Below are positions 3,128-32,743 of a DNA stretch of 36,168 nt, piece by piece. Positions within the stretch are counted from its first letter, which is position 1, and each line of letters begins with the position of its first letter. The notes below the pieces were generated by a model. That model was not told the DNA's origin and searched no databases. It was given only the letters and a program-made list of their open reading frames with translations. The stretch covers positions 1 through 36,168 of the forward strand of contig CAIUEN010000157.1 of assembly GCA_903898185.1 (NCBI GenBank), read 5' to 3'. Source of the DNA: an uncultured Verrucomicrobiales bacterium (GTDB taxonomy: Bacteria; Verrucomicrobiota; Verrucomicrobiia; Limisphaerales; Palsa-1400). Position numbers and translations under genes: made by a program.

Positions 3128-3211
3128 GCGTGACAGGAAGCTAACCCTGTGGGGCAGGTCTCCAACCTCTTGACACATCTTCCTCCAGCAAGTCAGCAAT
3201 TCTCATTTTGA
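3128..3211 (+). repeat. hybrid copy of the dispersed repeat family
   Basis: The copy begins at the base after the uvrA-like stop codon. Its left part (GCGTGACaGGAAgcTAACCC, TGTGGGGC, then ATCTTCCTCCAG) matches the left part of the element at 24942-25103. Its right part, 3192-3211, is a 20-bp GTCAGCAATTCTCATTTTGA identical to 33165-33184 and equal to the terminal repeat of the copies at 9441 and 20977. It therefore looks like a composite or decayed element lying between two co-directional genes. Confidence 0.75.
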
Positions 3212-7057: not shown

Positions 7058-8365
7058 GTGAGTAACTCAACAGCCAAACCTAAACATGGGATTACACCGA
7101 CAGCGATAAGCCTGTTTGCTGGGGTGGGTGGGTGTTCGCTAGGTTTCATACAAGCGGGTTATGACATTCGGTTTGCCACTGATATTGATGCCAAAGCGGT
7201 AGAAACATACCGCAAGAATTTCCCGAAGACTCCATCCGAGAGGGCTGATATCTGTGATATCAACGGGCTCGAATTGCTTGAACGCACTGGGTTGAAAGTT
7301 GGCGAGCTTGATATTCTTCTGGGAGGTCCGCCCTGCCAAGGGTTCAGCAGTGCAGGAATGAAGGCTGGCGATGATCCTCGTAATTCACTATTGTCCCACT
7401 ACGTGCGCATTCTTGACTGCATTCAGCCAAAGTGGTTTGTAATGGAGAACGTGGAAGGATTGCTTACCAACGCGGGTGGTGTTCACGTTAGGGACACGGT
7501 TCAAGCGTTCCTCGACGCGGGGTATTCGGTTAATCTGGAGAAGCTTTATGCGCAGGGTTTCGGCGTGCCTCAGAGACGCAAGCGTGTGCTGATAGTCGGG
7601 AATCGGCTTGGACATGATTATGTTTTTCCAAAGCCAATCAGTTTCTATTCAGGACATATCTTTCGAAAGGGGGAGGTGACTTTTGAGTCGGCTGTCGGCG
7701 ACTTACCTCCAGCCGCCCAAAGCCCTGACGAAACGCTTGCATTTCGGGGGCCGCCAGGAAATGACCTGCAAGCGTATCTTCGTGGCGACGCTCTGACCGT
7801 TACGGATCACTATTCTTTGCCGCTTTCAAGTATCCAACTTGAACGTGTTTGTAGCTTGGAGCCAGGCCAAACAATGAAACATTTGCCCGAGCATCTTCAA
7901 CATGAGTCCTTTCGACGCCGTGCTTTCCGTCGCGTGATGGATGGAACATCTGTTGAAAAACGAGGCGGTGCGCCTTCTGGGCTGAAACGGTTATTTGCCG
8001 AGGAGCCGAGTTTGACCATCACTAGTGCCGCAACTCGCGAGTTCATTCATCCAAGCCAAGATAGGCCAATTACCCTCCGAGAGTGTGCGCGATTGCAGAC
8101 GTTTCCAGATTCTTTTGATTTCGTTGGTGATGCTTCAGACCGCATCCAACAAATCGGCAATGCCATTCCTCCGTTACTGGCCCGTCGAGTTGGTGAACAT
8201 ATAGCGGAGAACTTTGGTTTTTCCATACAAAGTTACCAAAACAGTCGCCCCATATTGAGATTTTTCCTTACTCAAGCCGACGGGAAAAGTCCCGCTCTCG
8301 CCAAGACTGAGACGCTACTGACTCATCTGGCAAACGGAAAACAGGAGCAGTTAGCGTTAACTTGA
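7058..8365 (+). CDS. DNA cytosine-5 methyltransferase of a type II restriction-modification system
   Basis: The enzyme transfers a methyl group from S-adenosylmethionine to C5 of cytosine within a specific DNA site. The 435-residue protein has the family motifs in canonical order: motif I SLFAGVGGCSLGF at 18-30; the catalytic Cys in GGPPCQGFSSAG near 89; ENV in MENVEG near 129; QRRKRV near 172; a variable target-recognition region at about 200-320; and the C-terminal RECARLQTFPDSF and QIGNAIPPLLA motifs. The start is GTG 7058, preceded by AGGGGC; no ATG lies between it and motif I. The nuclease gene follows 19 bp downstream on the same strand, so this is the protective half of the pair. The target sequence cannot be read from the DNA. 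Confidence 0.95.
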   Translation: MSNSTAKPKHGITPTAISLFAGVGGCSLGFIQAGYDIRFATDIDAKAVETYRKNFPKTPSERADICDINGLELLERTGLKVGELDILLGGPPCQGFSSAGMKAGDDPRNSLLSHYVRILDCIQPKWFVMENVEGLLTNAGGVHVRDTVQAFLDAGYSVNLEKLYAQGFGVPQRRKRVLIVGNRLGHDYVFPKPISFYSGHIFRKGEVTFESAVGDLPPAAQSPDETLAFRGPPGNDLQAYLRGDALTVTDHYSLPLSSIQLERVCSLEPGQTMKHLPEHLQHESFRRRAFRRVMDGTSVEKRGGAPSGLKRLFAEEPSLTITSAATREFIHPSQDRPITLRECARLQTFPDSFDFVGDASDRIQQIGNAIPPLLARRVGEHIAENFGFSIQSYQNSRPILRFFLTQADGKSPALAKTETLLTHLANGKQEQLALT

Positions 8366-22354: not shown

Positions 22355-23971
22355 ATGAACAGCATGAAAACTTTTCTACTGAAACTGGAGCCAGTGCGGT
22401 TGCTGACGGCGGTGATTGTCTTCGCTGGTGCTTTGATGGCCAATGCGCAGAATGTGCAGCACTTGAGCGTTACAGTGCCAGGTGGAATGCCTGGAATTCC
22501 AACGTTAACGAGCATCCAACGCTCGACCAATGGCGTGTCCCTGACATGGGACGGCCCTACGGGATATTATCAGGTTTTTGAAAAAATCACGCTTGCCGGC
22601 AAATGGCAGGCATTGGGACCTGCCGCCAACCTGAGCAGGCAAGCTACCGTGACAACGCGTTATGCCAGCGATTTCTTTAAAGTCGCTGGACCAAAGCCTA
22701 ATTATGCTGGATCGCAGGTCTGCGCGGAATGCCATGCGAACATCGTGACATCTATATCTCACACGCGCCATGCGGATGCGTTCACAAGCGCCAAGTTTAA
22801 GGAACAAGGCGGTCAGACCAATTCATCCTGTTTCTCATGCCACACAGTTGGCTACGGTTTGCAGACTGGTTTCATAGATTATTCCAAAACTCCCAAGCTT
22901 GCTGGTGTTCAATGCGAAAGCTGCCACGGGCCTGCTGCCAATCATGCGGTCAACCCGGACGATTTCGTCGCGCGACCGCGCATCGAATTGGCGGCCACCG
23001 TTTGCGGCGGATGCCATACCGGCGCACATCAACCGACCTATGACGAATGGGCCACCAGCGAGCATGTGCAGGTGACCGAGGAAATAACAGGCATGCTGAC
23101 TTCCACCAATTATCTCAATCAATGCGGGCGCTGTCACTCGGGCTCAGCCCGGTTGAGCCTATTGAAAGGCAAGGCGTTGCCTGTGGGTGACGCGCTCGTT
23201 GGAGTGGTTTGCATCACATGCCACGACCCCCACCAAACCAATGGCTACCTTGCCCAGCTTCGCAACCCGATTGCTTCAACCAACGACTACACTTTGGCAA
23301 CCAACGATGTTTTCAAGACCAAGTACAACGTCAAAATCAACGTCTGCGCCCAGTGTCACAACAGCCGAGCTGCCTCATGGACCAATAATTCGCCTCCCCA
23401 CATGTCTCTACAGTACAATATGTTGCTTGGCACGGTTGGCGACCTGAGTTCGAAGCTGCCGCATTACAGTCCGGCGTCTCATGCGATCCTGATTACAAAT
23501 CAGTGCGTCGGCTGCCACATGCAGACGACCACACATCCAGACGGCATCCATCCGGCAACCACTGGTCACTCTTTGAAGATCCAACATTACGATCTCTGCA
23601 TCAACTGTCATCCTCTTCCCGAGTTGCTGGTGGACTTTGTGCAAGACGCGATGACTAACAATATCAAAGTGGTTGTTTCCGCATTGAACTACTGGGCCAC
23701 GAACAAGGCACCGATTGCCTTGCGGACGAAGTACCAGGAGCGGGCGTGGGAATATCCGACTAATGAGTTGTATTCTCTGTTGTCAGTCTCCGGCCCGACT
23801 CCCACCGCAGCCGAGCAGACGCAAATTCCCGAGAACATTCGGAGAGCCCGCTTCAACGTTTACACGGTCAGAAACGATGGCAGTTTTGGTGTTCATAATG
23901 GAACTTACTCCGTGACGCTCTTGGAGACAGCTATGGATTGGATTCAGGAGGAGTTGAAGTTGAACAAGTAG
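22355..23971 (+). CDS. secreted nine-haem c-type cytochrome
   Basis: The exported electron carrier has 538 residues from ATG 22355 (or ATG 22364). The signal peptide is KLEPVRLLTAVIVFAGALMA with cleavage after ANAQ. A small beta-sandwich (about 30-105, NGVSLTWDGPTGYYQ...FFKVA) precedes the cytochrome part, 123-419, which has nine CXXCH motifs: CAECH, CFSCH, CESCH, CGGCH, CGRCH, CITCH, CAQCH, CVGCH and CINCH. The tail (about 420-538) is haem-free and helical (cytochrome c554-like arrangement). A longer frame from 22217 lacks a good export signal. It is the first of three genes with the DmsE-like cytochrome and the porin, 40 bp apart from the next. Confidence 0.92.
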   Translation: MNSMKTFLLKLEPVRLLTAVIVFAGALMANAQNVQHLSVTVPGGMPGIPTLTSIQRSTNGVSLTWDGPTGYYQVFEKITLAGKWQALGPAANLSRQATVTTRYASDFFKVAGPKPNYAGSQVCAECHANIVTSISHTRHADAFTSAKFKEQGGQTNSSCFSCHTVGYGLQTGFIDYSKTPKLAGVQCESCHGPAANHAVNPDDFVARPRIELAATVCGGCHTGAHQPTYDEWATSEHVQVTEEITGMLTSTNYLNQCGRCHSGSARLSLLKGKALPVGDALVGVVCITCHDPHQTNGYLAQLRNPIASTNDYTLATNDVFKTKYNVKINVCAQCHNSRAASWTNNSPPHMSLQYNMLLGTVGDLSSKLPHYSPASHAILITNQCVGCHMQTTTHPDGIHPATTGHSLKIQHYDLCINCHPLPELLVDFVQDAMTNNIKVVVSALNYWATNKAPIALRTKYQERAWEYPTNELYSLLSVSGPTPTAAEQTQIPENIRRARFNVYTVRNDGSFGVHNGTYSVTLLETAMDWIQEELKLNK

Positions 23972-24011
23972 CGGACCGGATAGCGCATGACCGTGAACAA
24001 GCTGACAGATC

Positions 24012-24872
24012 ATGATGAACCAAGATTTCCAAAATGATAAAAAGAGCGCCTCACGCTTGGTACGCGGATTGGCGCTGACCTTGGGCGCGATGGCTTTGGC
24101 GCTGGTGGTGATTTCCTGCGCAAACCCAGGACGCACCGCCGTGCTGCTCCCGAATGTTCCTGGCGCGAAATACATCGGATCGAAGGAATGCGAGCAGTGC
24201 CACGATGCGTTGTATCGGGACTTTGCCACCGCAGATCACGCGAGGCTGATCGCCGAAGGTACCAATGCCATCAACGCAGGATGCGAGTCCTGCCACGGTC
24301 CGTGCAGCCTGCACTCGGATTCTGGTGGCGAAGTAAAACCTCCTTACAGCTTCACCTCGGGCCGTCCGCAGCCCAACAGCTTCGGCGCGCGTGTGATGGC
24401 TCCAGCCTCCCGTGCCCGCGAGACAGTCTGTTTCCAATGCCATTCTAATGTGCGCGGTCAGTTCAATCTGCCCAGCCATCATCCAGTGCCCGAGGGCAGG
24501 CTTGCCTGCATTGATTGTCATCCGCCTCACAAAGGCTCAGCCCACCGTGGTGGCGGGACTCTATTGATGTCGGCAAACGAAGCCTGCATCCGCTGTCATC
24601 CCGCCCAGCGCGGGCCGTTTGTTTTCGAGCATGAAGCCGTGCGCGAAGGCTGCGTCATGTGTCACAATCCTCACGGCTCGGTGAACGCCAAGATGTTGAC
24701 CGTTCGTGACGCGAACCTCTGCTTGAAATGCCACTTCCAGCAGGTCAGTGGCGGGAGACTGCTCATCGGAGGGGCCGATCACACTGTGCGCCTTCAACAG
24801 GGCACTTGCTGGTCGGCCGGTTGCCACGAGTCTATTCACGGATCACGGGTCAGTCCCTCCTTGCGGTTCTAA
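24012..24872 (+). CDS. multihaem cytochrome lipoprotein of the DmsE/MtrA type
   Basis: The 286-residue protein has a membrane-targeting N-terminus with lipobox VISC (Cys36). It carries seven CXXCH motifs (C60, C91, C140, C166, C192, C214 and C237) and a last site C266-WSAG-C-H272, which is CX4CH. The text matches the DmsE/MtrA doubled-CXXCH family: ACIDCHPPHKG, ACIRCHPAQRGPF, GCVMCHNPHGS and LCLKCHFQ. That family normally binds ten haems, so this one is short by about two. MtrA-type proteins thread through an outer-membrane barrel to conduct electrons; the barrel gene follows 18 bp downstream. Confidence 0.92.
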   Translation: MMNQDFQNDKKSASRLVRGLALTLGAMALALVVISCANPGRTAVLLPNVPGAKYIGSKECEQCHDALYRDFATADHARLIAEGTNAINAGCESCHGPCSLHSDSGGEVKPPYSFTSGRPQPNSFGARVMAPASRARETVCFQCHSNVRGQFNLPSHHPVPEGRLACIDCHPPHKGSAHRGGGTLLMSANEACIRCHPAQRGPFVFEHEAVREGCVMCHNPHGSVNAKMLTVRDANLCLKCHFQQVSGGRLLIGGADHTVRLQQGTCWSAGCHESIHGSRVSPSLRF

Positions 24873-24890
24873 TCAACAACTCGAATACCG

Positions 24891-27221
24891 ATGAAATCAC
24901 GAAGATCAATCGCAAAAGGACAGTTTCGCTGGTGTTGGATGCGTGACTGGAAAGTAACCCTGTGGGGCTGGCCTCCGGCCTGCCAGTTTGAGGGGGCTCC
25001 GACCCCGCGACCCCATCTTCCTCCAGAGCAGATCCACGGAGTTAGAAACTCCGGGAACCGGCAGACCAGAGGTCTGCCCCACAAAACTTTCCGGTCACGC
25101 ACCCGCTGGTGTTGGATGTCCCTCCCAGGTCTATTTTTGGCGGTCTCGACGCTCTCTGCCGCAGATGCCAAGGTGCCCGACGCTTCAGGATCAAACACCA
25201 ATTTTCCGGCGGCAGCCGCTCCCGAGTTGACCCCCGAGCAAATGCACGAGGGCGGCACCAACACGTATGCCGGGTGGATTGAATTCGGCGGTGGCGGTGT
25301 GATCACCAGCGGCAACAAGGCCGAGTTCCGGAAGCGGCGACCAACCTCCGGAAGCGTGTTTGGCGGCATTGAAGATTTTCATTACCAGGGGGAAGTATCG
25401 AAAGACACCACACTGGCCATCGACGGACACTCGATTTTTGACGACAAGAATTACAAGCTCAGCTTCGACTTGCAACGCGAGAAACTCGGTTACATAAAAC
25501 TCAATGTCAGTGAATTTCGCACTTGGTCCGATGGCGACGGCGGTTTTGATCCGGGTTCCGGAGCCTATTATTCGTTGTCGAAAAACGCATTGGGAATGGA
25601 TCGGGGTGAAATTTCATTTGAAGGCGGGCTGACTCTTGAAAAAGCGCCCAAGGTCACTTTCAAATACACCCACGCATTTCGCGACGGCGAAAAAGATTCG
25701 ACGAGCTGGGGAATTGTTCACCCCGCAGGAAACACGGTTTTGCTTTCGCCTTCATTTTACGACATCAAGGAAAACAGCGATGCATTCCAATTGGACGTTG
25801 CTGGCAAGATTATGAAAACCGATGTCGGCGGCGGAGTGCGCTACGAGATTGGAAAACTGGACGACACCCGCAAGATCGGTCAATCCCTCGGAGAGCCTTC
25901 CGAACGAAAAATCACCGACCAGCAGAGCTCCAGCTACGACATGTTCAGCGCCCACGCTTTTACCGAAACGTGGATCAAGAAGAACCTGCTTTTTTCGTCC
26001 GGCTATCTCTATTCGACGCTTGATAACGACTTTTCCGGGAGCCGCATTTATGGGGCGGATTTCGAAGTCGGCTATCAACCCAACCGTACGAATAATCTGG
26101 GTTACATCGGTCTGAACGGTGGTTCGCGCTTGCATGAATATGTGATGGATCTCAACCTTCTTTACAAACCGACGGATCACTTCTCGATAATTCCGTCGGT
26201 TCGTGTTCAAAAAGAGGTTTCAGATGCAAACTCGGACGGTTTGGGAACGCTTGCAGACTATTCCCCGTCCGCATTCACCGCCGACAGCGACCGTCACCTG
26301 ATCGACGTGCGCGAGCGGCTTGATCTGCGCTACAACGGCATCACCAACTGGGTGTTCTGGGGCCGCGGCGAATTGACTGAAGGCTCCGGGAATCTGAGGG
26401 AATTGGGAGGCGTAGGCCAAGTCAACGGCATTGGCATTCCGTCCATAGATCGGCGGACCGAAGATGACCGCCTTTTTCAGAAATACAGCCTGGGCGCGCG
26501 CTGGTATCCTTTACGCATTGTAACTGTTGATGGCGGCGGTTATTATAAACACAACGACTTTGATTATAGTCGCGTTTTTGACAGCACTTCCAACGACCCC
26601 GCCAGTTTCAATCGCTATCCGGCATACTTGGTCACTCAGGATTTTGACACCTACGATGGCAATTTCCGGCTGACGATCCGGCCCAGGCCGGATTTAACGC
26701 TCGTCAGCCGCTACGAATACCAACTGTCAACGATTCATACCCGTCCTGACTCGATCTCCACGCTGCCGGAAATGGAGACTTCGACCATGACCAGCCACAT
26801 CATCGCGCAGGACGTCAGTTGGTCGCCATGGTCGCGGCTTTACTTGCAGGCGGGAGTCAATTACGTTTTAAGCGACGTCAAAACCCCGGCGTCAGACATC
26901 GTAAGCGCCATCCTCAAGGCTCAGAACAACTACTGGACCCTGAACTTTTCCTCAGGGCTGGTGCTGGACAAAAAGACCGACCTGAACCTCGCCTATTTCT
27001 ATTATCTGGCTGACAACTACGTGAACAACTCAAGCTACGGCGTCCCCTACGGATCGGGTGCTGAGGAACACGGCGTGACGGCAACCATCGTCCGTCGGAT
27101 CACCAGCAACATTCGCCTGAAATTGCGGTATGGATTCTTCCATTACACCGACAACACTTTCGGTGGCTACCGTGACTATGACGCACACACGATCATGTCA
27201 AGCTTGCAATACCGATTCTGA
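24891..27221 (+). CDS. MtrB/PioB-type outer-membrane beta-barrel, signal peptide interrupted by a repeat
   Basis: The 776-residue protein is predicted to be the porin sheath of a porin-cytochrome conduit. From about residue 120 to the end it is a run of amphipathic strands with aromatic girdles (YKLSFDLQREKLGYIKLNVS, KVTFKYTHAFRDGEKDSTSW) and it ends in LQYRF, the C-terminal Phe being the barrel-insertion signal. It follows the DmsE-like gene by 18 bp, as MtrB follows MtrA. Residues 13-76 are odd: the codons for RWCWM occur twice, flanking 54 residues encoded by a mobile repeat. Without the insert the N-terminus would be MKSRRSIAKGQFRWCWM plus SLPGLFLAVSTLSAADA, a normal signal peptide. The frame remains open through the insert (177 bp, 59 codons). 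Translation could also restart nearer the hydrophobic core (ATG 25116). No CXXC pair of Shewanella MtrB type is seen. Confidence 0.85.
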   Translation: MKSRRSIAKGQFRWCWMRDWKVTLWGWPPACQFEGAPTPRPHLPPEQIHGVRNSGNRQTRGLPHKTFRSRTRWCWMSLPGLFLAVSTLSAADAKVPDASGSNTNFPAAAAPELTPEQMHEGGTNTYAGWIEFGGGGVITSGNKAEFRKRRPTSGSVFGGIEDFHYQGEVSKDTTLAIDGHSIFDDKNYKLSFDLQREKLGYIKLNVSEFRTWSDGDGGFDPGSGAYYSLSKNALGMDRGEISFEGGLTLEKAPKVTFKYTHAFRDGEKDSTSWGIVHPAGNTVLLSPSFYDIKENSDAFQLDVAGKIMKTDVGGGVRYEIGKLDDTRKIGQSLGEPSERKITDQQSSSYDMFSAHAFTETWIKKNLLFSSGYLYSTLDNDFSGSRIYGADFEVGYQPNRTNNLGYIGLNGGSRLHEYVMDLNLLYKPTDHFSIIPSVRVQKEVSDANSDGLGTLADYSPSAFTADSDRHLIDVRERLDLRYNGITNWVFWGRGELTEGSGNLRELGGVGQVNGIGIPSIDRRTEDDRLFQKYSLGARWYPLRIVTVDGGGYYKHNDFDYSRVFDSTSNDPASFNRYPAYLVTQDFDTYDGNFRLTIRPRPDLTLVSRYEYQLSTIHTRPDSISTLPEMETSTMTSHIIAQDVSWSPWSRLYLQAGVNYVLSDVKTPASDIVSAILKAQNNYWTLNFSSGLVLDKKTDLNLAYFYYLADNYVNNSSYGVPYGSGAEEHGVTATIVRRITSNIRLKLRYGFFHYTDNTFGGYRDYDAHTIMSSLQYRF
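24927..25118 (+). mobile_element. repeat element with 15-bp target duplication inside the porin gene
   Basis: The 15-bp sequence CGCTGGTGTTGGATG occurs exactly at 24927-24941 and 25104-25118. Between them are 162 bp whose ends are inverted repeats: CGTGACTGGAAAGT (from 24942) and ACTTTCCGGTCACG (to about 25099). Further in, CTGTGGGGC-TGG-CCTCCGGCCTGCC faces GGCAGACCAGAGGTCTGCCC. An inner hairpin GGAGTTAGAAACTCC is present. No protein is encoded, so it is a non-autonomous (MITE-like) element. The inner block TGTGGGGCAGACCTCTGG is shared with the copies at 20977, 30124 and 32737; the left end with 3128. Total added length, with one duplication, is 177 bp, which preserves the reading frame. Confidence 0.85.
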
Positions 27222-28763: not shown

Positions 28764-30242
28764 TTATCGATGGAGCATTTGAAAACGGGTCACGGCGGCG
28801 GCATCTATCTGGATTTTCCCCAAGTTTGCGTTAATGCCATGAACGGTTTTGCAATCGTATTGGTCGAGTTGAATGGTCAGCCGACCGCTTTGGCCGAAAA
28901 AGACCCGCACAGTGGCTGGAGCCATGCCATTTCGGGCGGGCTGGAGCCTGGCAAAATCGAGCTGTTTCAGGCGGGCCAGCGGGATTTCGGCGATGCCTTG
29001 GGCATTGGACACGGTGATCTTTCCATTCTCGATGGCCATCAAATCACCCAAGACCAGGGAATCGTCATTGAGTCGGAGGGCATCCTGCTTTCCATCAGGA
29101 TTGACCGGCGGCTTCTCATCCAGCACCCCATCCCATTGAGAAATTCGTATGTTGGAGATTTTCACTGCTCCCATGCCCTGGCTGACAAATCGGACCATCG
29201 TTCCCTGGCCGATGAACCCTGTCGGATCAATCCACTCCTTGACCAACGCTCCATCAAGCAACAGCGAAACTGAAGCGCTGGGTTTATTGACACGCAAATC
29301 GACACGCGCCAGGTTGGTACGGCTGAGCATTTGAACCATCGCCGGCTCGAAGGCGCGCTGCGGGTCGCCCTGCCGGACGGCCAGCAAATTCGCCACTGTG
29401 TTGTTCAGTTGAAAACTGTAAAACGCGCCAAACGGCGGTTCGTTGTCTTTGGCGGCCAGGCTGACGGGCTGCGGCGAATCGGCGTAAAGAGCGACCGCGA
29501 GCTGGAACATAGTCTGCCAGCGGAGATCGAACTGAATGCTTGCCACCGGCGGAAGATTCAAATCACGCGCGATTGATGCCGATTTGCTGGTGTAAAACGC
29601 CCCGTTGCGGTAACTCCACTGGCTTCCGCCCATCGGCGCCAGCGCCGAGATTCCCTGTGTCCATCCATCGAGTCCGGTCGGACCGTCATAAACTGCGGAC
29701 TGTGGCGGAGGGACGATGGTAATCGAGATGACGGCGTTTCGCGGCGCGGTGAGAAGACCGGCAACCGGGGTTAGGATACGGACGGAGTTGCTGTCGCACG
29801 ATTCGAGAATGCCTTCGACAACATCTTCGCCGCGCAACCGCGCGCGGCAAGCGGTGGTGGGCCAGGGCGCAGGCGCTGGAACAGCGCCCAAGTCAATGCC
29901 GATGATGTTGGTGGGGTGAAAACGAATCTCGGATGCGTCAGAGCGAGCCCATTGGATGCCGTTTTGCAGGTCGAACGAGAGCAGTCTCCCTGTCAGGGAG
30001 TCACCGTTGCGAAAAAACAGCTTATCGACTGCTGGCGCGTTGGTTTCGGCCCGCACGGACGCAACCAAGAACAGGAATACAACAGAAAGAAGCGAAGCCA
30101 AGACCGTTCTGGAAAGGTTAAAGCAGCAATTCTCATTATGTGGGGTAGGCCTCTGGCCTGCCGGTTGCGGTGCCTCTGGCTCCGCGACAGTCAGCACAAT
30201 AATCACTGAAGCATCCCCGTAGTTGTGACGAATGTTTCGCAT
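28764..30242 (-). CDS. secreted LamG-like protein, second of two paralogues
   Basis: From ATG 30242 the product has 492 residues. The mature part begins after NLSRTVLASLLSVVFLFLVA with cleavage at SVRA. The first half has small-barrel strands (FFRNGDSLTGRLLSFDLQNG). The central part is a concanavalin/LamG-type sandwich (YDGPTGLDGWTQG...YRNGAFYTSKS...ARDLNLP...ISNIRISQWDG). The end repeats the barrel-like text (FFGQSGRLTIQLDQYDCK). It shares this layout with the gene directly upstream, whose stop is 13 bp away. Codons 13-38 come from a dispersed repeat (30124-30208) lying between the basic start MRNIRHNYGDAS and the hydrophobic core. A longer frame from 30311 overlaps the upstream gene and is not preferred. 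The ligand is unknown. Confidence 0.75.
   Translation of the reverse strand: MRNIRHNYGDASVIIVLTVAEPEAPQPAGQRPTPHNENCCFNLSRTVLASLLSVVFLFLVASVRAETNAPAVDKLFFRNGDSLTGRLLSFDLQNGIQWARSDASEIRFHPTNIIGIDLGAVPAPAPWPTTACRARLRGEDVVEGILESCDSNSVRILTPVAGLLTAPRNAVISITIVPPPQSAVYDGPTGLDGWTQGISALAPMGGSQWSYRNGAFYTSKSASIARDLNLPPVASIQFDLRWQTMFQLAVALYADSPQPVSLAAKDNEPPFGAFYSFQLNNTVANLLAVRQGDPQRAFEPAMVQMLSRTNLARVDLRVNKPSASVSLLLDGALVKEWIDPTGFIGQGTMVRFVSQGMGAVKISNIRISQWDGVLDEKPPVNPDGKQDALRLNDDSLVLGDLMAIENGKITVSNAQGIAEIPLARLKQLDFARLQPARNGMAPATVRVFFGQSGRLTIQLDQYDCKTVHGINANLGKIQIDAAAVTRFQMLHR
30124..30208 (+). repeat. truncated copy of the dispersed repeat in a signal-peptide region
   Basis: The left end is complete (CAGCAATTCTCATTATGTGG, then the palindromic block in its GGTAGGCCTCTGGCCTGCC form and GGTTGCGGTGCCTCTGGCTC). 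The right half is missing and replaced by the 22-bp block at 30187-30208 that also occurs at 9532-9553, in the opposite orientation relative to the element. It lies in the N-terminal codons of the minus-strand LamG-like gene, which stays open through it. Confidence 0.85.
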
Positions 30243-30255
30243 ATTGAACCCAAAA

Positions 30256-31713
30256 TCAGTCATCCATGCCTCCAAACTCATCGCCAACGGGCGCGGCGGA
30301 ATCAGTTTCAATTTGGCTTGGATGAAAATCGAGTTCGCGAATCATCCACGGTTTCAGAACGATTGGGCCAAGAAAGGCGCTCCGGGCAGAAATCTCGTTG
30401 GCGCCCCAATGGCTCAACTCAAGCGAGATACGGGCTCCTCCCGACAGGGTGGCGCGCACTTCGTGGGCTTGAGAGGCAGTTGGCGTGGGCGCGGCAAACT
30501 CGATCTTAGTAATCCGCTCCAGCGGAATCTCGATCTGATGGCCGCTGAGCATGAATGTGACTTTGCCGCCGCCAAGGCCGGAGATTTTTCCAAAGGCCCT
30601 GTCGTGATTGACAAGCCAGATGGCGTCGGAGTTGGTCTGTGAGGTGGAGATGATGTCTGGTTCGCGCCCCTCCCATCGACTGACCCGGAAATCGCTCAGG
30701 CAGACGCCGGGTAATCCTGATAATTCGTTGAACGAGATGCGAGTGCCTTTGCCGACAAACCCGGTTTCATCCTTCCAGCGCCGCACTAATTGGTTGTCAG
30801 CCAGAATCGTGAGCGTTTTTTCCGTCAGGTTGCATTGGATGGCCAGCCGCACCCGGTTTTTCTGGGGGGGCGCGGGCAGAGTTGCCGATCCCAAGTCCAC
30901 CGATCCGCCGGTGGGGTTGTTGCGACGGACCCTTACAGTGCCCGAAGTCAACTCGATCACATACGAATTGTTTCCATACTCAATCTGGTCTTTTTCGAGA
31001 TAAAGTCCCATCGTCAGATGGCAACGGTTGACTCCGGAGAGATCGAACTCGACGGCGCATGAGCCGGAAAGCTGCAAATCGCGTCCGAGCGCGCCATATC
31101 CCCGGCTGATGAAAACGCCGTCCCGATACCTCCACCCATCTGGCGGCGTGATGCTCCAGCCTTGCATGTCAATCGGACCTTCGTATTCAGACGAATACGC
31201 CTTGGGCAGGAAGGTGATGGATTGGATTGCTGTTCGTGGAATGACTGCCGCGCCACTGAACCAGGTGGTTGCGCTGATCCGATCCCAGTCCATCGACGTA
31301 ATATCCGCCGAAATTTCGTCTCCATTGACAAGCCGGATGTGGCACTTGGAAGTTACCGGAACCGACTTTGCGTTGGCCAAACGTATATGGTCGAGACGGT
31401 CGCCTCTGAACTCAATGGGCTGGGATGCTTCCGGGTGTGACCAGATGACGACCGGCCCAGGTTCAATCGATTTGAGAGCCCCATGAAGCTCAGAGCCGTC
31501 ATCGAATCGCAGCAGGTCGCCCGTGGGCGCAATCGCCAAATCAGTCGTTGGAACCGGGGAAGAATTAACAAAACCGCGATTCAGGACAAATGCTCTGCCA
31601 TTGATATTCACAACCCCCTGCTGCTGAGCCTGGGCGAACTCGCCCGCCAGCAATGCCATCAATAGCAGAAAAAATTTGCCACTCCTGATATCAAACGCAA
31701 TCTGTGCATGCAA
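30256..31713 (-). CDS. secreted LamG-like protein, first of two paralogues
   Basis: The protein has about 485 residues from TTG 31713. The signal peptide is RSGKFFLLLMALLAGEFAQA then QQQ. Domains in order: barrel-like strands (LLRFDDGSELHGALKSIEPG, HIRLVNGDEISADITSMDWD), a LamG/concanavalin-type sandwich (YEGPIDMQGWSITPPDGWRY...GALGRDLQLSGSCAVEFDLS...LSDFRVSRWEG) and a C-terminal strand set (VRATLSGGARISLELSHWGA). It is a paralogue of the following gene. ATG 31770 is an alternative start overlapping the upstream stop, but its first codons fall in a tandem repeat (31721-31753), so they are probably not original. A membrane- or matrix-associated periplasmic role is possible; no function is recognised. 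Confidence 0.75.
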   Translation of the reverse strand: MHAQIAFDIRSGKFFLLLMALLAGEFAQAQQQGVVNINGRAFVLNRGFVNSSPVPTTDLAIAPTGDLLRFDDGSELHGALKSIEPGPVVIWSHPEASQPIEFRGDRLDHIRLANAKSVPVTSKCHIRLVNGDEISADITSMDWDRISATTWFSGAAVIPRTAIQSITFLPKAYSSEYEGPIDMQGWSITPPDGWRYRDGVFISRGYGALGRDLQLSGSCAVEFDLSGVNRCHLTMGLYLEKDQIEYGNNSYVIELTSGTVRVRRNNPTGGSVDLGSATLPAPPQKNRVRLAIQCNLTEKTLTILADNQLVRRWKDETGFVGKGTRISFNELSGLPGVCLSDFRVSRWEGREPDIISTSQTNSDAIWLVNHDRAFGKISGLGGGKVTFMLSGHQIEIPLERITKIEFAAPTPTASQAHEVRATLSGGARISLELSHWGANEISARSAFLGPIVLKPWMIRELDFHPSQIETDSAAPVGDEFGGMDD

Positions 31714-31720
31714 TTTCCTT

Positions 31721-31753
31721 GCTGAAAACTGAAAACTGAAAACTAGCAAACTC
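31721..31753. repeat. third copy of the GAAAACT-repeat arm
   Basis: GCTGAAAACT followed by two more GAAAACT units and AGCAAACTC. It matches the arm at 16403-16433 except for one additional 7-bp unit and the lack of the terminal TGCCC. Here there is no opposing arm. It lies between the stop of the toroid gene and the likely start of the LamG-like gene. Confidence 0.85.
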
Positions 31754-31759
31754 CTTCTC

Positions 31760-32743
31760 TCACCGTTCATAAATGGGCAGATAGCGGTAGTTCAACGCCA
31801 GCGAAAGCAGCGACGCCGATGTTCCAAAGGTGCGCCCGAACTGGCCTTCCCAATAACCCTCCGCAGCCTGAGACATCCGGAGCATTTTGATGTTTTCACG
31901 ATTCCACGTTTGCCATGCCTCGGGCGAACTGTGGAAATATGCCTGCGATGCGTAATAGAGATAATATTGGGCGTATTGGGCTTCGATTGGAGCCTGTTTT
32001 ATGAACTCGAACGCGGATTTGAAAACCGGCGATGTCTTGTCCTTGGCAAGGGCATACACGGTGCAGGCGATGGCAGATCGTGTGCCGTTTGGCGCTGTTG
32101 GGCTTGTATAACCAATGCCGCCGTCGGAGGTCTGGCAGGTCTTGTAAAAGAGCAGCCCATTTTGGATTGCCGTTTCCGGGACGGCGATGCCCGCGTTGCG
32201 GGCCGCGAGCAGGGCGACCATTTGCGCCCCGCTAACCGTGGTGTCGGCATCCTTGCTTTCGGGACTGTATCGCCAAGCGTGAAAGGAATTGTTCTCCTGC
32301 GAATGCACGATCAGTTGAACCGACTTTTGAAGCGCCGGTCCCAGGTGCGGTTCGTCCACGGCCCCGTAGGCTTCGGCAAGCGCAAGAGTGCCGAAACCGT
32401 GGTTATACATTGATGTGCCAATGTAACCGGTTTTGGCGTCAGCTCGTTTGAGAATGAAATCAAGCCCGCGATGGATGGCGGTTGAGTAAGGGCCGGAATT
32501 GGGGTCGTCGCCATGAGCCAACATGCTGATCACCGCCAAACCGACCACGGCAGGTTCGCTGCCGTAAAGCGGATCATCGGGCCAGTTGCCGGCTGGGTTT
32601 TGAGTCTTTACCAGCGCCTGCAAGCCGCGAACGTAAATGCGATCCACCTCGGCGGGCATGACAGCGGAAGAGGTGGTGAAGGTTTCCTGAGCTTGGAGGA
32701 TGGCAGGAGCGCAGGCCATGAGCAATGCAAGAGCCTCTCTCAT
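31760..32743 (-). CDS. secreted alpha/alpha-toroid protein (prenyltransferase/squalene-cyclase-like repeats)
   Basis: From ATG 32743 the product has 327 residues, with signal peptide MREALALLMACAPAILQAQ. The body is a run of helical-hairpin repeats of the terpenoid cyclase/prenyltransferase fold: GLQALVKTQNPAGNWPDDPL, AIHRGLDFILKRADAKTGYI, NGLLFYKTCQTSDGGIGYTS and MLRMSQAAEGYWEGQFG. The cyclase DXDD acid motif is absent (nearest is DADTT), so catalysis as a squalene cyclase is unlikely; it is more like the secreted binding or scaffold proteins of this fold. The start ATG lies in the end of a repeat (32737-32860); an upstream extension to 33034 is repeat-derived. It is the first gene of a run of three secreted proteins. 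Confidence 0.8.
   Translation of the reverse strand: MREALALLMACAPAILQAQETFTTSSAVMPAEVDRIYVRGLQALVKTQNPAGNWPDDPLYGSEPAVVGLAVISMLAHGDDPNSGPYSTAIHRGLDFILKRADAKTGYIGTSMYNHGFGTLALAEAYGAVDEPHLGPALQKSVQLIVHSQENNSFHAWRYSPESKDADTTVSGAQMVALLAARNAGIAVPETAIQNGLLFYKTCQTSDGGIGYTSPTAPNGTRSAIACTVYALAKDKTSPVFKSAFEFIKQAPIEAQYAQYYLYYASQAYFHSSPEAWQTWNRENIKMLRMSQAAEGYWEGQFGRTFGTSASLLSLALNYRYLPIYER

Follow-up and report, generated by a model that had tools for sequence, protein, structure and literature searches.

The window analysed here is a whole contig of 36,168 nucleotides (C157) from a metagenome-assembled genome (MAG) of 4.48 Mb and 95.6% completeness. It carries three adjacent genes that probably, at a probability we place near 0.78, encode a porin-cytochrome conduit of the type proposed for Verrucomicrobia in 2017, with the cytochrome cyt2 inside an outer-membrane barrel and the cytochrome cyt1 at the surface. 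The computed basis of this reading is the homology of cyt2 to MtrA, the predicted MtrB fold of the barrel, the relation of cyt1 to the reductase OcwA, and the conserved linkage of the genes. An earlier reading of the same DNA from its letters alone (the sequence-only reading) had described three co-directional genes with small gaps, and the open reading frame (ORF) coordinates agree: all three lie on the plus strand, with intergenic gaps of 40 and 18 bp. The features of the locus are:

22355–23971, plus strand: cyt1, a secreted c-type cytochrome with nine haems, in the OcwA / octahaem-reductase superfamily; it has a Sec-type signal peptide and, on its N-terminal side, a beta domain
24012–24872, plus strand: cyt2, an eight-haem MtrA/DmsE-like lipoprotein, the presumed electron wire within the barrel
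24891–27221, plus strand: barrel ORF, an MtrB-like outer-membrane beta-barrel by prediction, whose conserved part starts at about 25116
24927–25118, no strand assigned: dispersed palindromic repeat, REP-like (repetitive extragenic palindromic), with a 177-bp period and 15-bp direct repeats at its flanks, in frame in the barrel signal-peptide region

Nine CXXCH motifs are found in cyt1, and seven CXXCH plus one CX4CH (CWSAGCH) in cyt2, matching the nine haems and the eight (rather than ten) counted in the sequence-only reading; the barrel has none. Shuffled versions of cyt1 and cyt2 contained on average 0.025 and 0.06 CXXCH motifs and never exceeded 2, so a chance origin of these motifs is excluded. 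The c-cytochrome maturation genes are also encoded in this genome. The top named relatives of cyt2 belong to Limisphaerales / Verrucomicrobia subdivision 3, and therefore the verrucomicrobial label, already suspected from the look of the sequence, is right. A scan for promoters and terminators gave counts near those of shuffled sequences and was not used as evidence.

The best solved relative of cyt2 is the MtrA chain of the Mtr complex (6R2Q chain A), with E-values of 2.7e-27 in a single-sequence search and 4.6e-38 in a profile search, which bears out the earlier assignment to the DmsE/MtrA-type multihaem lipoproteins. The two proteins align across the entire haem region as two overlapping pieces, from which we infer that an internal two-haem stretch of MtrA is missing from cyt2. 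With homology to MtrA detected, cyt2 is best described as a shortened MtrA. Its Cys36 comes after a hydrophobic stretch and does not vary across 25 sequences, consistent with a lipoprotein. Across 124 relatives, 16 histidines are kept at 98% or more, eight within the haem motifs and eight outside them (76, 101, 157, 173, 207, 221, 257, and 276); as distal ligands, the latter would supply one partner per haem, as bis-His ligation of all haems requires. The same class of seven CXXCH and one CX4CH is present in 118 of the 124 relatives, and on motif counts eight haems is the normal state of this cytochrome type in Verrucomicrobiota. Two relatives outside the clear Verrucomicrobia set have ten haems, one of them labelled Gemmatimonadota. 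In a separate locus (L063:4447-7290), a single 947-aa ORF unites five haem sites of a cyt2 homologue with a barrel, either as a natural fusion or through a frameshift.

Against decahaem models, cyt2 gives E-values of 3.5e-47 (DmsE, TIGR03508) and 4.6e-51 (GSU2203), both under the cut-off; the DmsE family is also matched by each of the 25 relatives in the alignment. Such scores would also suit a DmsE/DmsF-like conduit serving an extracellular molybdoenzyme, for example dimethyl sulfoxide (DMSO) reductase. We consider this very improbable: no molybdoenzyme occurs among the scanned neighbours (the rest of the genome was not searched for one), and DMSO reductase genes are largely absent from the Verrucomicrobia genomes of He et al. 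(PMC5615132).

The third protein had been called an MtrB/PioB-type barrel, a claim that holds for the predicted fold and fails for the Pfam family. The Pfam MtrB/PioB model was dropped as proof of barrel identity because the barrel scores below its cut-off; the model has no match anywhere in this genome, and its cut-off is passed in only 11 of the 320 genomes of the order. An AlphaFold2 model covering 25116–27218, built from 46 sequences, is confident (predicted local distance difference test (pLDDT) 87.4, predicted template modelling score (pTM) 0.81) and has 26 strands of at least 9 residues. MtrB (6R2Q_B) is its top match in the Protein Data Bank (PDB) both by Foldseek (6.9e-15) and by VIA-align (Z 22.1, with 571 of 649 residues at 3.7 Å; the second-ranked chain reaches Z 17.4 at 6.6 Å). 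The barrel is predicted to have the MtrB fold, and we do not count it as a member of the Pfam MtrB/PioB family. A second conduit type was seen at other loci (L080-L091, L149-L175, and others), in which the barrel encoded after an eight-haem cyt2-like gene itself carries a single CXXCH close to the N-terminal end. There are 31 such barrels, plus one match that is a merged ORF, and the two barrel ORFs searched both match the PSCyt1 monohaem domain (E 2.2e-18); this type reads as a haem domain fused onto an MtrB-like barrel.

For cyt1, the best solved relative is OcwA (6I5B; E 9e-13 single sequence, 6.1e-24 profile), followed by 6QVM and cytochrome c554. Pfam finds Cytochrome_C554 and Cytochrome_C7 in it, and the MtrC/MtrF domain II/IV model gives a local match only. 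In Thermincola, OcwA serves as a terminal reductase at the cell surface, and two of its nine haems have open sites (PMC6703420). In cyt1, eight non-motif histidines are fully conserved in 31 of 31 orthologues; because this is one fewer than its nine haems, one haem may have another distal ligand or none. These relations make cyt1 a candidate surface terminal oxidoreductase, presumably exposed outside the cell. We found no published statement of a relation between such a protein and OcwA in a small literature sample. Two more nine-haem proteins, of 763 and 846 aa, are encoded elsewhere in this genome (L197:2554-4845 and L198:3687-6227).

The same features leave room for cyt1 to act in the periplasm instead, reducing or detoxifying a small molecule (nitrite, hydroxylamine, or sulfite, for example), with a separate role for cyt2 and the barrel. 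The protein is a member of the c554/NrfA/MccA/octahaem superfamily, nitrite and hydroxylamine are among the substrates that OcwA can reduce (PMC6703420), and an open haem is allowed by the histidine count. In addition, among the 320 genomes of the order there are eight with a cyt1 match and no barrel orthologue, 73 with both, and 30 with the barrel orthologue alone. We judge this explanation quite unlikely, as the similarity of cyt1 to OcwA exceeds that to nitrite or sulfite reductases, and cyt1 is closely linked to the conduit genes: in 55 of the 60 compared genomes with both on one contig, cyt1 and barrel are at most 2.5 kb apart. The order cyt1-cyt2-barrel is maintained in nearly all of 20 orthologous loci, and the cyt2-barrel pair is present in most of 79 named loci. 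The pair recurs across Verrucomicrobiota, with cyt1 joined mainly in Limisphaerales. A barrel homologue occurs in 184 of the 320 genomes and an orthologue in about 103, the two being split by a cut-off set in this analysis.

A protein of CbcL-like architecture, in which 11 haems are combined with a cytochrome b membrane domain, co-occurs with the barrel orthologue in 54 of the 320 genomes, and in 21 genomes its gene lies 2–16 kb from the barrel orthologue. CbcL-type homologues in Verrucomicrobia have already been reported (PMC6295460). In this genome the CbcL-like gene is on contig C438, adjoining a NapC/NrfH-type gene, and its product is the likely inner-membrane partner. The conduit that we propose would assemble with the eight-haem cyt2 in the lumen of the 26-stranded barrel, where it would relay electrons between periplasmic or inner-membrane cytochromes and cyt1, and cyt1 on the cell surface would exchange them with a substrate outside the cell, be it humic substances, Fe(III), or something else. 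The same proteins could also run inward, drawing electrons from a donor outside the cell, Fe(II) or another, and feeding them to the quinone pool, as in MtoAB or PioAB. Iron oxidation by Mto and Pio does use homologues of MtrA and MtrB (PMC6344600), and homologues of CbcL, MtoC, and MtrH occur in oxidisers and reducers alike with no distinguishing feature (PMC6295460). Yet Mto and Pio lack an extracellular multihaem component (PMC6344600), whereas here a relative of a terminal reductase, cyt1, is present, and the clusters of He et al. came from humic, anoxic settings (PMC5615132). Inward flow is on these grounds unlikely.

Several results weigh against a porin-cytochrome conduit at this locus. 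The score of cyt2 is under the curated DmsE cut-off (161 vs. 192.2 bits), and that of the barrel is under the cut-off for Pfam MtrB/PioB (PF11854; 12.3 bits, cut-off 23). Single-sequence and profile searches of the barrel against PDB chains gave no significant match, MtrB included. The structure model of cyt1 is poor (pLDDT 47.6), and no surface anchor, such as a lipobox, is visible in cyt1. The co-occurrence counts in the order are raw and ignore kinship among the 320 genomes. The NapC/NrfH-like multihaem gene on C438 (L195:6106-7263) has an in-frame TAA between its membrane anchor and haem domain, at a place where the frame is open in relatives; this is either a real nonsense codon or a sequence error. 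Lastly, a repeat in the signal region could impair the barrel copy of this genome.

This repeat also changes the N-terminus of the barrel as originally read. Residues ~18–76 of the barrel ORF belong to a dispersed repeat with about 40 matching sites in the genome. The barrel's relatives lack it, and their short signal peptides match the two parts that flank the insertion here. The repeat is palindromic with a 177-bp period, and is bounded by exact 15-bp direct repeats (CGCTGGTGTTGGATG) at 24927 and 25104. Because it is inserted in frame within the first 75 codons, the 776-aa length of the barrel is unreliable. It looks like a REP-type insertion, with assembly error as another possibility; the genome has 14 matches to the Y1_Tnp transposase family. 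More partial copies lie in the window near 3128, 20986, 30139, and 32743. One explanation is that this genome's copy is decaying, with the repeat blocking correct export of the barrel, while the system is functional in relatives. The 177-bp repeat and its 15-bp flanking duplication inside the signal-peptide region point that way, as does the TAA in the C438 gene. The insertion preserves the frame, however, the remaining barrel is undamaged and shows good conservation (66% identity with its nearest relative), and an ATG at 25116 directly precedes the hydrophobic stretch; we therefore hold decay to be a minor possibility.

If the conduit works as we read it, extracellular humic substances or minerals could serve for respiration in many uncultured Verrucomicrobiota from soils, bogs, and lake sediments, and such extracellular respiration would shift the share of carbon going to respiration versus methane. 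The constant eight-haem count would also offer a way to test how few haems can span such a barrel. Elsewhere in the window, positions 7058–8365 encode a DNA cytosine-5 methyltransferase (dcm, E 1.6e-60), followed by an unassigned 350-aa ORF up to 9437, a possible restriction-modification pair. Positions 28764–31770 encode two adjacent proteins of about 510 aa with similar layout and no Pfam match.

The closest comparison is with the Verrucomicrobia clusters of He et al. 2017 (PMC5615132), in which a periplasmic cytochrome with eight haems stands beside a porin of 20 or more strands, joined in several clusters by a cytochrome outside the cell. The present locus shares with them the phylum, the eight-haem periplasmic cytochrome, the adjacent large porin (26 strands predicted here), and the multihaem cytochrome found in several, presumed extracellular here, and no difference in kind was found in a comparison made by published description rather than with the Trout Bog gene sequences. 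The cyt2-barrel pair is also carried by a MAG labelled Opitutus sp. GAS368, a taxon listed by He et al., who name Opitutus terrae as well, a cultured relative with the cluster. The sequence-only reading had presented the locus as a variant conduit little described in the phylum, which does not stand: the same arrangement is in He et al. 2017, and eight haems are the norm for the version in this phylum and are also found in the periplasmic cytochrome of the porin-cytochrome complex (Pcc) of Geobacter. The arrangement is mostly reported already, and this locus is a well-supported example, not a new kind. Where it departs from the 2017 account is in the verdict on origins. Those clusters were judged non-homologous to known systems, whereas our searches find cyt2 homologous to MtrA and the barrel MtrB-like in its predicted fold; a detectable MtrA/MtrB tie would put the proposed verrucomicrobial system in the superfamily of the Shewanella conduit. 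A 2022 survey found mtrCAB in three phyla, and a text search for Verrucomicrobia in that survey and in the 2014 Pcc survey found it named in neither.

Compared with MtrCAB of Shewanella (6R2Q), cyt2 is homologous to MtrA and the 26-strand predicted barrel is nearest to MtrB in fold. The differences are the eight haems of cyt2 versus ten, with the two-haem stretch missing, a barrel under the Pfam cut-off and without CXXC, and a terminal cytochrome whose nearest relative is OcwA rather than MtrC. OmbB-OmaB-OmcB (Pcc) of Geobacter sulfurreducens likewise combines a porin, an eight-haem periplasmic cytochrome (PMC4245776), and an extracellular cytochrome; it differs in the twelve haems of OmcB, and the Geobacter proteins have been described as non-homologous to MtrABC (PMC6344600). 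OcwA of Thermincola potens (6I5B) shares with cyt1 its nine haems, its place as closest solved relative, and a common DGS-GVHN region near the C-terminus, whereas OcwA belongs to a Gram-positive cell wall without an outer membrane and cyt1 has an N-terminal beta domain. OcwA-type surface reductases are so far known from Gram-positive bacteria. Tentatively, and with slightly less than even confidence, we suggest that Limisphaerales have a hybrid wire, made of an MtrAB-type conduit minus a two-haem stretch, an OcwA-type rather than MtrC-type surface reductase, and a CbcL-like inner-membrane feed. What our analysis adds to the published picture is the MtrA homology, the MtrB-like fold, the OcwA-like cyt1, the conserved distal histidine set, the frequency in the order, the CbcL-like co-occurrence, and the repeat insertion, and the links of this locus with the Shewanella conduit and with a surface reductase from a Gram-positive bacterium seem to come out more clearly than in published work.

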